Origin: Bombella apis
Lineage (GTDB): Bacteria > Pseudomonadota > Alphaproteobacteria > Acetobacterales > Acetobacteraceae
Length of the DNA: 64,000 nt
Direction of reading: 5' to 3'
Assembly: GCF_018221685.1 (NCBI RefSeq)
Contig: NZ_JAGJTM010000004.1
Span: 562,287-626,286 of the forward strand
Shown: positions 51,191 through 54,644 of the stretch, piece by piece
Layout of the letters: every line of letters starts with the position of its first letter
Position numbering within the stretch: position 1 is the first letter of the stretch
Position numbers and translations under genes: made by a program
Notes under the pieces: generated by a model
What the model saw: only the letters and a program-made list of their open reading frames with translations
Told to the model about the DNA's origin: nothing
Databases searched by the model: none

Positions 51191-51215
51191 GGCCTGGCCC
51201 TATGGTCAGGCCTTT
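51191..51215. terminator. Terminator after gshB
   Basis: GGCCTGGCC (51191-51199) pairs with GGTCAGGCC (51204-51212), nine pairs with one G-U, loop CTAT, then TTT. It stands between gshB and a convergent small gene and may serve both. Confidence 0.75.
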
Positions 51216-51517
51216 CACCTGTTTGGTGTCTGGTCCGTTTTCCGTGTTACGGTCTCGTGGGGAGGCTCTTCCGGTGATGTGGAGCCGTCCTCTGTCCTGG
51301 CATCTTTTTCAGGGTCGGAAGGATAGAGATTGTCCCGGAATGGAATGGGTACGCCATCAGAGAAATATCCATTTTCCACCTTCAGGTCCCTGGATGGTCT
51401 GTCCCGGCTGAACCTGTTGATGAGCCATGGAAACAGTCTTTCATGGTAATAGACGACATAAAGGGCCACCCAGAAAAACAGGCAGAGAAGGGCCAATATG
51501 AGATCGAGATGCTTCAT
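51215..51517 (-). CDS. Small single-pass membrane protein, function unknown
   Basis: A 100-residue protein begins with a membrane helix (about residues 5-24, LDLILALLCLFFWVALYVVY), followed by a basic segment and an acidic, Pro/Asp/Glu-rich tail (YPSDPEKDARTEDGSTSPEE). It could be a membrane-anchored small protein with a periplasmic or cytoplasmic disordered tail. I recognise no family. The ribosome site is weak, so the start is provisional. It is flanked by the gshB terminator and 184 apparently empty bases before the methyltransferase gene. Confidence 0.5.
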   Translation of the reverse strand: MKHLDLILALLCLFFWVALYVVYYHERLFPWLINRFSRDRPSRDLKVENGYFSDGVPIPFRDNLYPSDPEKDARTEDGSTSPEEPPHETVTRKTDQTPNR

Positions 51518-51701: not shown

Positions 51702-52358
51702 ATGGTGTCTTCCCTTAAACCCCGTTCTTCCCTCGATGCTGACAGCGTACGTGATGCCTATCGCCGTTGGGCTCGCATGTACGACAAGGTTTTTGGCGGT
51801 GTATCCGCTTTCGGGCGACGGCGGGCCGTGGCGGCTGTCAATGCGCTTCCGGGCACGCGTGTGCTGGAGGTGGGAGTTGGAACCGGGCTGGCCCTTCCTT
51901 CCTACAGGTCCGACAAACGCATTACAGGAATCGACCTCTCGGAAGACATGCTGGCCCTTGCCCGGGAGCGTGTGAAGAGGGAAGGTCTCCGTAATGTTGA
52001 TGAACTTATGGTGATGGACGCCGAACATACCACCTTTGCCGATAACAGCTTTGATATCGCCGTCGGCATGTTCGTGGCCTCTGTCGTGCCTCATCCGGAC
52101 CTGCTTCTGGCAGAGTTGAAGAGGGTGGTGAAACCGGGGGGACACATCCTTTTTGTCAACCATTTCCTTGCCCGTGGGGGCCTTCGGCTGAAGGTGGAGA
52201 AGGTCATGGCCCGGGCCTCCCGTGCGCTGGGCTGGCATCCTGATTTTGCCATTGAATCCCTGCTTCCACCGGAGGATATGGCCCGGGCGACCATCGTGCC
52301 CGTCCCTCCGGCGGGTCTGTTCACCCTCGTGACATTGCCGCCTGAGAAGACTAAGTAG
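51702..52358 (+). CDS. PmtA-type phosphatidylethanolamine N-methyltransferase (class I SAM-dependent)
   Basis: The SAM-binding motif I is VLEVGVGTGLALPSY (about residues 53-67) and motif II includes ITGIDLSEDMLALA; motif DRPGG-like RVVKPGGHILFVNHF follows. The N-terminal RDAYRRWARMYDKVFGG and overall pattern match the Rhodobacter-type PmtA that methylates phosphatidylethanolamine stepwise to phosphatidylcholine. Length 218 fits. The substrate is inferred from family resemblance. It ends at a strong hairpin terminator, so it is probably a single-gene unit. Confidence 0.78.
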   Translation: MVSSLKPRSSLDADSVRDAYRRWARMYDKVFGGVSAFGRRRAVAAVNALPGTRVLEVGVGTGLALPSYRSDKRITGIDLSEDMLALARERVKREGLRNVDELMVMDAEHTTFADNSFDIAVGMFVASVVPHPDLLLAELKRVVKPGGHILFVNHFLARGGLRLKVEKVMARASRALGWHPDFAIESLLPPEDMARATIVPVPPAGLFTLVTLPPEKTK

Positions 52359-52395: not shown

Positions 52396-53667
52396 ATGGT
52401 GGCAACAGGCTGGCGGAATAGAGTGACTTCAAGGCCGTTATTTCAGACAGTATCTTCATCCCGTCATGGGAGAAGCGGTGGGGCGTTTTTTCTGCTGGCG
52501 TTGTTTGCTGGCATGTTGGGGGGCGCCATGGGGTTGCCTTTCCTGCATGTGCATCCGTCTCCTGGTGTCGTTGTGTCCCATGCCGTGCTGATGACATTTT
52601 ATGTTGTATGCCCGGCTTTTCTGGGCGGGATGGCCCGCTGGTTCCTGCCGGACCTGCTGAAAGGCGAGGGCATGGCGCTGCCGTTTGCGGTCCGTACCGG
52701 TTTTGGCGTGCTGGCTGTAGGTGCCTTTCTGCTGCCGGTCATGCCGTTTGTCGGGCTGGCTCTCTGGAGCATTGGCGTGCTGGCGCTGGCTTTCAATGTG
52801 CTGGCCACGGTTCTGGAGATGCGGTCCATCCCCTTCCGTGATTGTCCGCCGCTGGTCTGGGCGTTTCTGGCCAATGCTCTGTCTGTGCTCATCATCGCTC
52901 CCGTTCTGCTGGCTTTTCTGCTGCGGAGTGGTCTGGCTGGTGCCGGGCCTGAAGCCCTTCTGACGGTTCTGCGTGGCAGTGTGGAAATGACCCTGCTGAG
53001 CGTGCCTTCGCTTGGCATCATCATGGCTGCTCTTCTGCCCGGGCAGAAGGAGCAGGGGTGGGTACCCCGCTGTGCTCCCCATGCGTTTGGCGTCATGGGT
53101 GTGGTGCCTGTTCTGCTCTGGGCTGACCATCTCTTCGGCGGGCTTCCGTCATCGGTTTACAGCGCTGGATTAAGCATCGGGCTAGGGGTTCCCTGTCTGG
53201 TTCTTCTCGTAGCCTTTGCCAGGGATATATGGCGTACTGCCCTGCCATCGGGGCCAGTGGCGGCCTGGGCTTCCGGTGGGCTTGTATTGCTGCTTGCTGG
53301 CTGGGCCGCCATGCTGACCGAACCAGTCTGGGGCATACAGGGGGTGCCGCCGGGGGCCTTCGTTCTGGGGGCGGCAGGGCATCAGCTTGTGATGTTCGGC
53401 AGCCTTCTTGCTCTCAGTGCAGCTTTCTATGGCTGGTGCGGGGCCAGACTGGCACGGTGGGGGCGATCTTTCTCCATTTTTGGCATGATTCATGCTTTCA
53501 TCACGTTTGTCGGGGCGCTCTGTTCCATTCTGCCGCAGCTGATCGTGCCTGCCGTGCTGTTGATGGGCTGCAGCCTGCTCATGTTCGCCCTGTCTGCCGG
53601 AATGGTCTGGTATGGCCTGCTGGTAGAGCGGACCCAGGGGACAATGGGGCTTTTTCCTGAAGAGTAA
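52396..53667 (+). CDS. Degenerate cytochrome c oxidase subunit I (CtaD)-like membrane protein
   Basis: A 423-residue, roughly 12-helix membrane protein. By-eye comparison with heme-copper oxidase subunit I shows clear collinearity. SHAVLMTFYVVCPAFLGG (61-78) matches the first heme-a ligand helix (His62). EMTLLSVPSLGII (197-209) matches the HPEVYI segment without its His and Tyr. LWADHLFGG (241-249) matches WAHHM, and GHQLVMFGSLLALSAAFYGW (328-347) matches the TM10 heme-ligand helix (His329). Low-spin heme ligands seem kept; most heme-a3/CuB ligands are lost. It precedes ctaB by 11 bases. The start is uncertain. Confidence 0.7.
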   Translation: MVATGWRNRVTSRPLFQTVSSSRHGRSGGAFFLLALFAGMLGGAMGLPFLHVHPSPGVVVSHAVLMTFYVVCPAFLGGMARWFLPDLLKGEGMALPFAVRTGFGVLAVGAFLLPVMPFVGLALWSIGVLALAFNVLATVLEMRSIPFRDCPPLVWAFLANALSVLIIAPVLLAFLLRSGLAGAGPEALLTVLRGSVEMTLLSVPSLGIIMAALLPGQKEQGWVPRCAPHAFGVMGVVPVLLWADHLFGGLPSSVYSAGLSIGLGVPCLVLLVAFARDIWRTALPSGPVAAWASGGLVLLLAGWAAMLTEPVWGIQGVPPGAFVLGAAGHQLVMFGSLLALSAAFYGWCGARLARWGRSFSIFGMIHAFITFVGALCSILPQLIVPAVLLMGCSLLMFALSAGMVWYGLLVERTQGTMGLFPEE

Positions 53668-53678
53668 GGTGTTTTTCC

Positions 53679-54644
53679 ATGCAGGCATCATCCGGTCTTT
53701 CGGCCTCTCCACTGGCCCGTTTTCTGGGGGCGCTGCGTGTCGAGGGACATGCTGGTGATACGGCTCTGCAAGATTGGGTGGCGCTGCTCAAACCACGAGT
53801 GATTTCACTTGTGGTCTTCACCGGGTTGGCGGGCATGGCCGTAGCGCCGAAATGGCCGTCCGTACCTGTCGGGCTGGTTATCATTGCCTGCATCTGCATC
53901 GGGGCCGGTGCGGCGGGTGCCATCAACATGTGGTATGATCGTGACATTGATGCGATCATGAAGCGGACCCGCATCCGTCCTGTTCCCGGAGGGCGGGTCG
54001 AACCGACGAGTGCGTTGGTTTATGCGGTTGTGCTGTCGGTAGCCTCCGTTGTGCTGCTCTGGTTGGCGACCAACCTGCTGGCGGCAGGGATTCTGGCTTT
54101 TTCCATCTTTTTTTATGGTGTGATCTACACCATGTGGCTCAAGCGCAGCACGCCGCAGAACATCGTGATTGGCGGCGCAGCCGGAGCTTTCCCCCCCATG
54201 ATCGGTTGGGCAGCGACGATGGGATCGCTGGACGTGCTGCCGGTGGTGATGTTCGCCATCGTCTTTCTGTGGACGCCTCCGCATTTCTGGTCGCTCTCTC
54301 TTTATGCGTGCAAGGATTACGAGAGTGCGGGCATCCCCATGCTGCCAGTCGTGAAGGGCGCACGCCATACACGCTGGCAGATCGTCATCTACACTTTCAT
54401 TCTGGGGGCCGTGTCTCTCGTGCCGAGCGTGGTCGGGCAGTGTGGCTGGTTCTACACGGTCTGTGCCAGCCTGCTGGACCTCGGTTTCATCTATTACGGC
54501 CTGCGGGTCCTGTTCGACAGACAGGATGAGAAGGGGAACAGCCTGACGAAAGATAAACCGGCCCGTCATGCGTTTCGCTATTCACTGGCCTATCTGTTCT
54601 TCCTCTTCTGTGGCCTTCTGATTGACAGGGTTCTTCTGGCATGA
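53679..54644 (+). CDS. ctaB: Protoheme IX farnesyltransferase (heme O synthase)
   Basis: CtaB attaches a farnesyl group to protoheme to give heme O, the cofactor of bo3-type ubiquinol oxidases and precursor of heme A. The UbiA-family signature NMWYDRDIDAIMKRTRIRPV with PGGRV is present (about residues 85-110), a second Asp-rich loop lies in LYACKDYESAGIPMLPVV, and about nine membrane helices are apparent. Length 321 is typical. It follows a CtaD-like gene and overlaps a 36-codon coxF-like gene. In acetic acid bacteria heme O would serve the quinol oxidase. Confidence 0.95.
   Translation: MQASSGLSASPLARFLGALRVEGHAGDTALQDWVALLKPRVISLVVFTGLAGMAVAPKWPSVPVGLVIIACICIGAGAAGAINMWYDRDIDAIMKRTRIRPVPGGRVEPTSALVYAVVLSVASVVLLWLATNLLAAGILAFSIFFYGVIYTMWLKRSTPQNIVIGGAAGAFPPMIGWAATMGSLDVLPVVMFAIVFLWTPPHFWSLSLYACKDYESAGIPMLPVVKGARHTRWQIVIYTFILGAVSLVPSVVGQCGWFYTVCASLLDLGFIYYGLRVLFDRQDEKGNSLTKDKPARHAFRYSLAYLFFLFCGLLIDRVLLA

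Follow-up and report, generated by a model that had tools for sequence, protein, structure and literature searches.

The cytochrome c oxidase subunit I-like protein of Bombella apis, termed here COX1L, descends from ctaD and has stayed at the position that ctaD occupied in the ancestral cta operon of acetic acid bacteria. Alignments indicate that it keeps the ligands of one heme site and has lost the other. It would be a repurposed membrane protein with one heme, of type b or o, that perhaps works with the heme O synthase CtaB; we put the probability of this reading at roughly one half, and the bound heme is the part of it that we infer. The gene is found in a 64,000-nucleotide stretch of the B. 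apis genome, referred to below as the window. Compared with named genomes, the window falls within or beside Bombella, at 81-82% identity to B. intestini, B. favorum, B. mellum and others.

Gene, locus and predicted fold

COX1L is positioned between two genes on the same strand:

51702..52358, + strand: methyltransferase (Methyltransf_11, by Pfam), directly upstream of COX1L
52396..53667, + strand: COX1L, degenerate ctaD/subunit-I-like membrane protein, 423 aa (open reading frame, phmmer, AlphaFold, family alignment)
53679..54644, + strand: ctaB, heme O synthase, 321 aa (TIGR01473, 330.4 bits; cut-off 210.3)

Thirty-seven bases separate the methyltransferase end from the COX1L start, and ctaB starts 11 bases downstream of COX1L. 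The reading frame is open over all 423 codons (52396-53667, + strand), as had been claimed by an earlier reading made from the sequence only. Among solved structures, the only significant phmmer matches are to cytochrome c oxidase subunit I, the best being 7jro_a (E 1.7e-9). An AlphaFold model built with 52 family sequences (pLDDT 88.3) matches Paracoccus subunit I (1ar1_A) with a Z score of 31.5 and an rmsd of 3.0 Å over 366 residues. The structure prediction proposed as a check in the sequence-only reading therefore yields the fold of oxidase subunit I, and the collinearity with COX1, judged there by eye, holds in both the phmmer alignment and the predicted fold.

The Bombella protein (P0001) matches no Pfam family up to E 10, PF00115 included, and no NCBIfam family; a COX1L member from another genome (G030) passes the PF00115 cut-off with 44.2 bits. 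The NnrS profile also gave no Pfam match up to E 10, yet the homologous PF00115 was missed in the same search, and the structural and PDB sequence matches favour subunit I over NnrS. By homology and fold, COX1L belongs to the heme-copper oxidase subunit I superfamily.

Distribution of the family

Of 299 genomes sampled from this bacterial family, at least 69 carry COX1L, and these have 21 genus codes among them. These genomes were found by single-sequence and profile searches, and 18 further genomes were inspected individually. The count, taken from the matches listed, is a lower bound because the scores of the most distant COX1L proteins overlap those of CtaD. Owing to this overlap the two were separated by reading the sequences: the COX1L form is about 390–520 aa long and without the catalytic residues, and real CtaD frames have 530–700 aa. 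Sequences were read for 68 of the 69 genomes, and one (G247) was counted by search alone. With 34 named loci added from Bombella, Saccharibacter, Gluconobacter, Neokomagataea and uncultured relatives, the set comprised 102 loci and 89 distinct proteins, after 13 identical pairs and wide duplicate loci were collapsed. A fragment cut by a contig edge (L095) was dropped, which left 88 full-length proteins. In a tree with 18 CtaD sequences, the COX1L proteins (55 members) form one clade with 100/100 support, and a quick tree agrees.

A search with P0001 at E 1e-11 in 385 genomes of the class returned only its own gene and a frame in genome G342; it missed the known members in G040, G122 and G056. 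The G342 frame (L152/L153, G342:C11:4509-5939) is CtaD-like, is located near a contig end and comes from another family of the class. By eye it retains the a3 His, the His and Tyr of GHPELY and one of the HH pair; GHPELY and HFH are kept, the HH pair reads WGQHM, and there is no Arg-Arg after TM11. In the tree it branches on the same side as CtaD (three long-branch rows were left out of one tree only, that used for this placement). The frame may represent subunit I decay that began independently and is still at an early stage, or else an atypical oxidase.

Heme and copper ligand positions

Residue counts were made in the 88 distinct full-length COX1L proteins and in 22 CtaD controls. The axial ligands and the K-channel Lys were assigned as in known oxidases, and so were the loop Trp and the Arg residues at the formyl group and the propionates. 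The positions of interest, with counts for COX1L, are as follows:

52579..52581, + strand: His62 codon, TM2 low-spin heme a axial ligand position (His82 of CtaD L070); His in 88/88
52765..52767, + strand: Trp124, COX1L-specific conserved residue; Trp in 82/88, Ala in 20/22 CtaD
52858..52860, + strand: Trp155, invariant in 22 CtaD and 88 COX1L; 88/88
52975..52992, + strand: G194-T199, at GHPEVY, with Glu197 kept; His 0/88, Tyr 0/88, Glu 56/88
53119..53121, + strand: Trp242, invariant in 22 CtaD and 88 COX1L; 88/88
53125..53130, + strand: Asp244-His245, CuB HH pair position; first His 29/88, second 9/88, never both
53374..53376, + strand: Ala327, heme a3 ligand position; His in 2/88
53380..53382, + strand: His329 codon, TM10 low-spin heme a axial ligand position (His398 of CtaD L070); His in 88/88

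In the phmmer alignment His62 falls on the TM2 His, and of the two His in AHFHY the first pairs with Ala327 and the second with His329; GSVEMTL falls on GHPEVYI and Asp244-His245 on HH. The placement of both low-spin ligands on the heme a site, proposed in the sequence-only reading, is thus reproduced by alignment and extends to all 88 family members compared. Its assignments of DH to the CuB pair and of Ala327 to the heme a3 His also agree with the alignment. As for the GHPEVYI segment, it was right that the CuB His and the cross-linked Tyr are lost and that Glu197 is kept, but Ser195 as the exact counterpart of the CuB His is uncertain: the family alignment has a one-residue gap within GSVEMTL, so that the counterpart may be G194 or S195, neither of which is His.

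The retention of the axial pair stands out against the general divergence. The 22 CtaD controls share 260 invariant positions, and only four of these (His62, Trp155, Trp242 and His329) are unchanged throughout the 88 COX1L proteins; the chance that both axial ligands would be among four drawn from 260 is 1.8e-4, assuming that all positions are equal. The same controls share 16 invariant His residues, and only His62 and His329 are kept in 88/88, the next best being kept in 79 and then 29. The spacing of each axial His to its neighbouring motif is gapless in all 88, and therefore the conservation is no artefact of gap placement.

Other parts of the enzyme have fared differently. The propionate-binding Arg pair and the loop Trp are each kept in 0/88 and the heme a formyl Arg in 8/88; thus the edge of the heme pocket has changed, which weighs against the one-heme reading. 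The K-channel Lys (Lys339 of CtaD) is kept in none of the 88. Cox11 is the chaperone that inserts CuB, and it was found in none of the 69 COX1L genomes. Of what a heme-copper oxygen reductase requires, COX1L has the low-spin His pair; missing are the a3 His, the three CuB His, the Tyr and the K-channel Lys, as well as Cox11 in the genome. The first His of the HH pair, present in 29/88, and the frequent Glu of GHPEVY might suggest that the active site was rebuilt and that COX1L still reduces oxygen or NO. This is exceedingly improbable given that the a3 ligand is absent in 86/88, that neither the His nor the Tyr of GHPEVY occurs in any of the 88, and that the K-channel Lys and Cox11 are missing throughout.

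Selection and evolutionary rate

The dN/dS ratios, which the sequence-only reading had named as a check, have medians of about 0.1, far from 1. They were calculated by the Nei-Gojobori method from pairs with dS of 0.1-1.2 only. The median is 0.110 in the Bombella-genus group (21/36 pairs usable; range 0.076-0.160), 0.085 in Gluconobacter (103/210 pairs; range 0.024-0.241) and 0.115 in Saccharibacter/Neokomagataea, where only 2/15 pairs were usable. The neighbouring genes give lower values, 0.027 for CtaB and 0.051 for the methyltransferase in the Bombella-genus group (21/36 pairs each), and 0.045 (156 pairs) and 0.033 (170 pairs), respectively, in Gluconobacter. COX1L evolves faster than its neighbours and is far from neutral.

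The tree of 55 COX1L proteins has a length of 48.7 substitutions per site. On it, the median well-filled column has undergone 19 changes and the five a3, CuB and Tyr positions 15-26, and the His62 and His329 columns have undergone none. On the same tree, synonymous changes between CAT and CAC occurred at least 18 times in one axial His codon and at least 12 times in the other. No internal stops were found among the 30 COX1L matches listed.

These data bear on the possibility that COX1L is a decaying pseudogene, open only by virtue of its place between the methyltransferase gene and ctaB, where translational coupling or promoter spacing might hold it. Its fast evolution fits such a view: the mean corrected distance is 1.75 for COX1L and 0.40 for CtaB, and dN/dS is two to four times that of the neighbours. 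Work by Matsutani in 2014 reportedly found ctaB and ctaA to be functional in E. coli, whereas ctaD had lost its function by 'accumulated mutations'. The pseudogene reading is nevertheless already contradicted by dN/dS near 0.1, by ligands never lost over the whole tree and by new family-specific conserved residues such as Trp124, and we consider it very improbable. The opposite proposition of the sequence-only reading, that of a retained and repurposed one-heme protein, draws support from dN/dS, His invariance and a fixed gene order, with the heme itself putative.

Descent from ctaD

The methyltransferase-COX1L-ctaB order, on one strand, is found at 101/101 loci that have both neighbours in view, a number that includes 13 pairs with identical proteins. 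The proximity to ctaB noted in the sequence-only reading is therefore general at the loci that can be tested. A relative with a real oxidase (L070) has at the same place the order methyltransferase-COX2-COX1-CtaB(UbiA)-COX3-SURF1, each over its Pfam cut-off. It follows that subunit II and the later genes left the locus and that ctaD stayed; ctaC, ctaE and surf1 are gone from the COX1L locus. Other neighbours, gshB and pmbA among them, are also kept nearby, and the adjacency of COX1L and ctaB may in part be inherited synteny.

COX1L and CtaD of the A-type aa3 oxidase share the fold, the gene place, the low-spin ligands, the helices and the cytoplasmic loops. COX1L differs in that it is without the heme a3 ligand, the full set of CuB ligands, the Tyr and the K-channel Lys, in the absence of subunits II and III and SURF1 from the locus and of Cox11 from the genomes, and in its loops. 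With membrane sides and loop borders assigned as we presume them to be, the periplasmic loops are 66% deleted, compared with 3% for the cytoplasmic loops. This is as expected if the side facing subunit II was shed. One member of 520 aa (L091) has lost the catalytic residues and still has part of the TM11-12 loop, which suggests that the oxygen-reducing centre was lost first and the loops later.

Relationship to CtaB

The stop and start codons of COX1L and ctaB overlap by four bases at 39/101 loci; open reading frame starts were assigned mechanically, and ctaB frames are over-extended at 36/101 loci. From this arrangement the two genes look like one transcription unit. A single bis-His site beside a heme-modifying enzyme, apparently co-transcribed, might be thought to mark a membrane protein that senses or buffers heme or redox state and so adjusts how much heme O is made. 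However, the 423 residues contain no output domain and nearly all align to subunit I, and adjacency is the one thing that points to such a role, which we regard as quite improbable.

Seventeen of the 299 genomes are without ctaB over cut-off, and none of these is among the 69 COX1L genomes. Five near-complete small genomes (G210, G066, G070, G029 and G116) have neither ctaB nor COX1L, and G210 shares a genus code (g31) with six COX1L genomes. A further genome without ctaB (G034) was left out of the five; its completeness is 82%, and it encodes both Cox11 and CtaA. In two others (G031 and G007), ctaB is at a contig edge, beside Cox11. The five are also without a typical match to bo3 subunit I, and thus the joint absence may only follow the loss of the heme O user. 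Three of them (G066, G029 and G116) have frames of 785-833 aa that match PF00115 only weakly (E about 1e-41 to 1e-42), and another type of heme-copper oxidase, one without heme O, may serve these bacteria.

Genome G001 provides the reverse case. At its locus (L092) the methyltransferase gene and ctaB adjoin, their matched parts lying only about 60 bases apart, and tblastn gave no match to P0001 between them; two full subunit I genes remain in the genome. Since ctaB is kept there without COX1L, CtaB can do without COX1L in this bacterium. G001 represents a natural COX1L deletion that can be used for comparison.

A published reading holds that COX1L is a scaffold that stabilizes CtaB and binds no heme; it is put forward in the text available of PMC10715153. 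COX1L adjoins ctaB wherever it has been seen and most of its catalytic residues are gone, and both facts accord with a scaffold. But the low-spin ligands are present in 88/88, never change on the tree and are more protected than any Gly or Pro, so that a pure scaffold is insufficient as an explanation, and the survival of ctaB in G001 also speaks against it. We judge a heme-free scaffold rather unlikely.

Covariation of evolutionary rates between COX1L and CtaB gives no specific support for a partnership. The partial correlation is 0.556 with one control gene and 0.216 with five neighbour genes controlled, the latter below two of the five controls (gshB, 0.310; galM, 0.319). A Mantel test on the residuals gave p 0.0008.

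Probable type of heme and genome context

A heme in COX1L would probably be b or o. These are likelier than heme a because about half of the host genomes are without heme A synthase (CtaA is present in 36/69 and absent in 33/69) and because the formyl Arg is mostly lost; CtaA was not found in the genome that contains the window. The eight full-length members that keep the formyl Arg (L028, L031, L033, L050, L076, L085, L086 and L091) all come from genomes with CtaA. As these members fall in few clades, their co-occurrence with CtaA gives a hint only of a link to heme type.

In the genome of the window, one gene (L001) is over the PF00115 cut-off, with 461.6 bits and the full profile. It is assigned to the bo3 type from B. 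intestini (PMC5112900, in the portion available). This CyoB-type protein, subunit I of the bo3 oxidase, belongs to the same superfamily as COX1L and is probably the enzyme that uses the heme O produced by CtaB; it differs in matching the full profile, COX1L being without the catalytic centre. The same genome encodes cytochrome b of the bc1 complex (G000:C4:178784-179089), though L001 is its only PF00115 gene. The presence of bc1 without a cytochrome c oxidase in acetic acid bacteria is a noted puzzle.

COX1L might be an electron carrier, for example for bc1. The low-spin heme a is an electron-entry site in real oxidases, according to the available text of PMC9145763, and B. intestini is described in the text available of PMC5112900 as having bc1 and cytochrome c with no annotated cytochrome c oxidase, so that an acceptor is wanted. 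On the other hand, subunit II is gone from the locus, most of the periplasmic loop sequence is deleted, and 13 of the 69 COX1L genomes have no PF00032 match (cytochrome b of bc1). COX1L therefore cannot serve bc1 in general; a bc1-linked carrier was set aside as a general role, and an electron carrier of any kind we consider unlikely.

A possible function

The reading favoured here, a one-heme protein derived from ctaD, can be set out as follows. With ctaC, ctaE and surf1 gone from the locus, subunit I lost its oxygen-reducing centre and periplasmic loops, yet selection has preserved it as a 12-helix membrane protein, which would carry a single low-spin bis-His heme. It may work with CtaB by accepting the heme O that CtaB makes, storing it or handing it over, and this heme would pass on to the bo3/ba3 quinol oxidase. 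The service to CtaB is perhaps the role of COX1L, and is offered as a hypothesis. To our knowledge, the acquired oxidase operon came without a heme O synthase gene of its own. That the operon was horizontally acquired, and that B. intestini has bo3 and bc1 and no cytochrome c oxidase, is reported in the available part of PMC5112900. A COX1L protein at work with CtaB is a possible answer to the question of how the acquired operon is served by the old ctaB.

Subunit I of heme-copper oxidases has been studied extensively. How hemes enter it is still not known, and during normal assembly the low-spin heme is inserted first, as stated in the available text of PMC9145763. The same source reports that without Surf1 half of the Rhodobacter sphaeroides enzyme has no heme a3; thus a one-heme subunit I can exist. 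That form holds only the low-spin heme, as is proposed for COX1L, but it arises when a normal protein fails to assemble, whereas COX1L would be a state fixed by evolution. The COX1L form might thus be a permanent version of the first subunit I assembly intermediate, with the low-spin heme only. In a more specific version, held tentatively and with less confidence than the general reading, COX1L frozen at this first stage would be a heme carrier: heme O from CtaB would enter its old low-spin site and be delivered from there to the bo3/ba3 oxidase gained by horizontal transfer, a Surf1-like job. If so, a respiratory enzyme now serves as chaperone to its own replacement. A natural low-spin-only family would also offer a direct model of the one-heme stage and a way to learn what a low-spin site requires, since it has no propionate Arg pair and mostly no formyl Arg.

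Published accounts of the gene

The COX1L gene is already known; what is new is the functional proposition. Degli Esposti (2023; PMC10715153) describes, in the text available, a 'deranged COX1-like protein' of Acetobacter that has lost all metal-binding residues and is structural. By that description it is the same gene at the same place beside ctaB, but it is said to be without any metal-binding residue, whereas in COX1L the low-spin pair is invariant and the gene is under strong selection. The present alignments would contradict 'lacking all' unless the Acetobacter protein differs from the 88 read, none of which is from a named Acetobacter; for acetic acid bacteria as sampled here, the published statement is to be corrected. 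The available text of PMC5158111 counts ctaD (A. pasteurianus APT_01775) and ctaB, whose locus numbers are neighbours, among the conserved genes, and that of PMC6915089 treats ctaB and ctaA as working remnants of the cytochrome c oxidase cluster. The main text of PMC8602642, which presents knock-out data, does not mention ctaB, ctaD or cytochrome. In the literature searched, to the extent of the texts available, no account of the low-spin ligand invariance, of selection or of the family-wide picture was found.

A minor observation concerns a small frame upstream of the methyltransferase gene, at window positions 51215-51517 on the minus strand. It encodes 100 aa with a hydrophobic N-terminus and has no Pfam or NCBIfam match; among 39 wide loci that were clustered, 10 have a relative of this frame close by.
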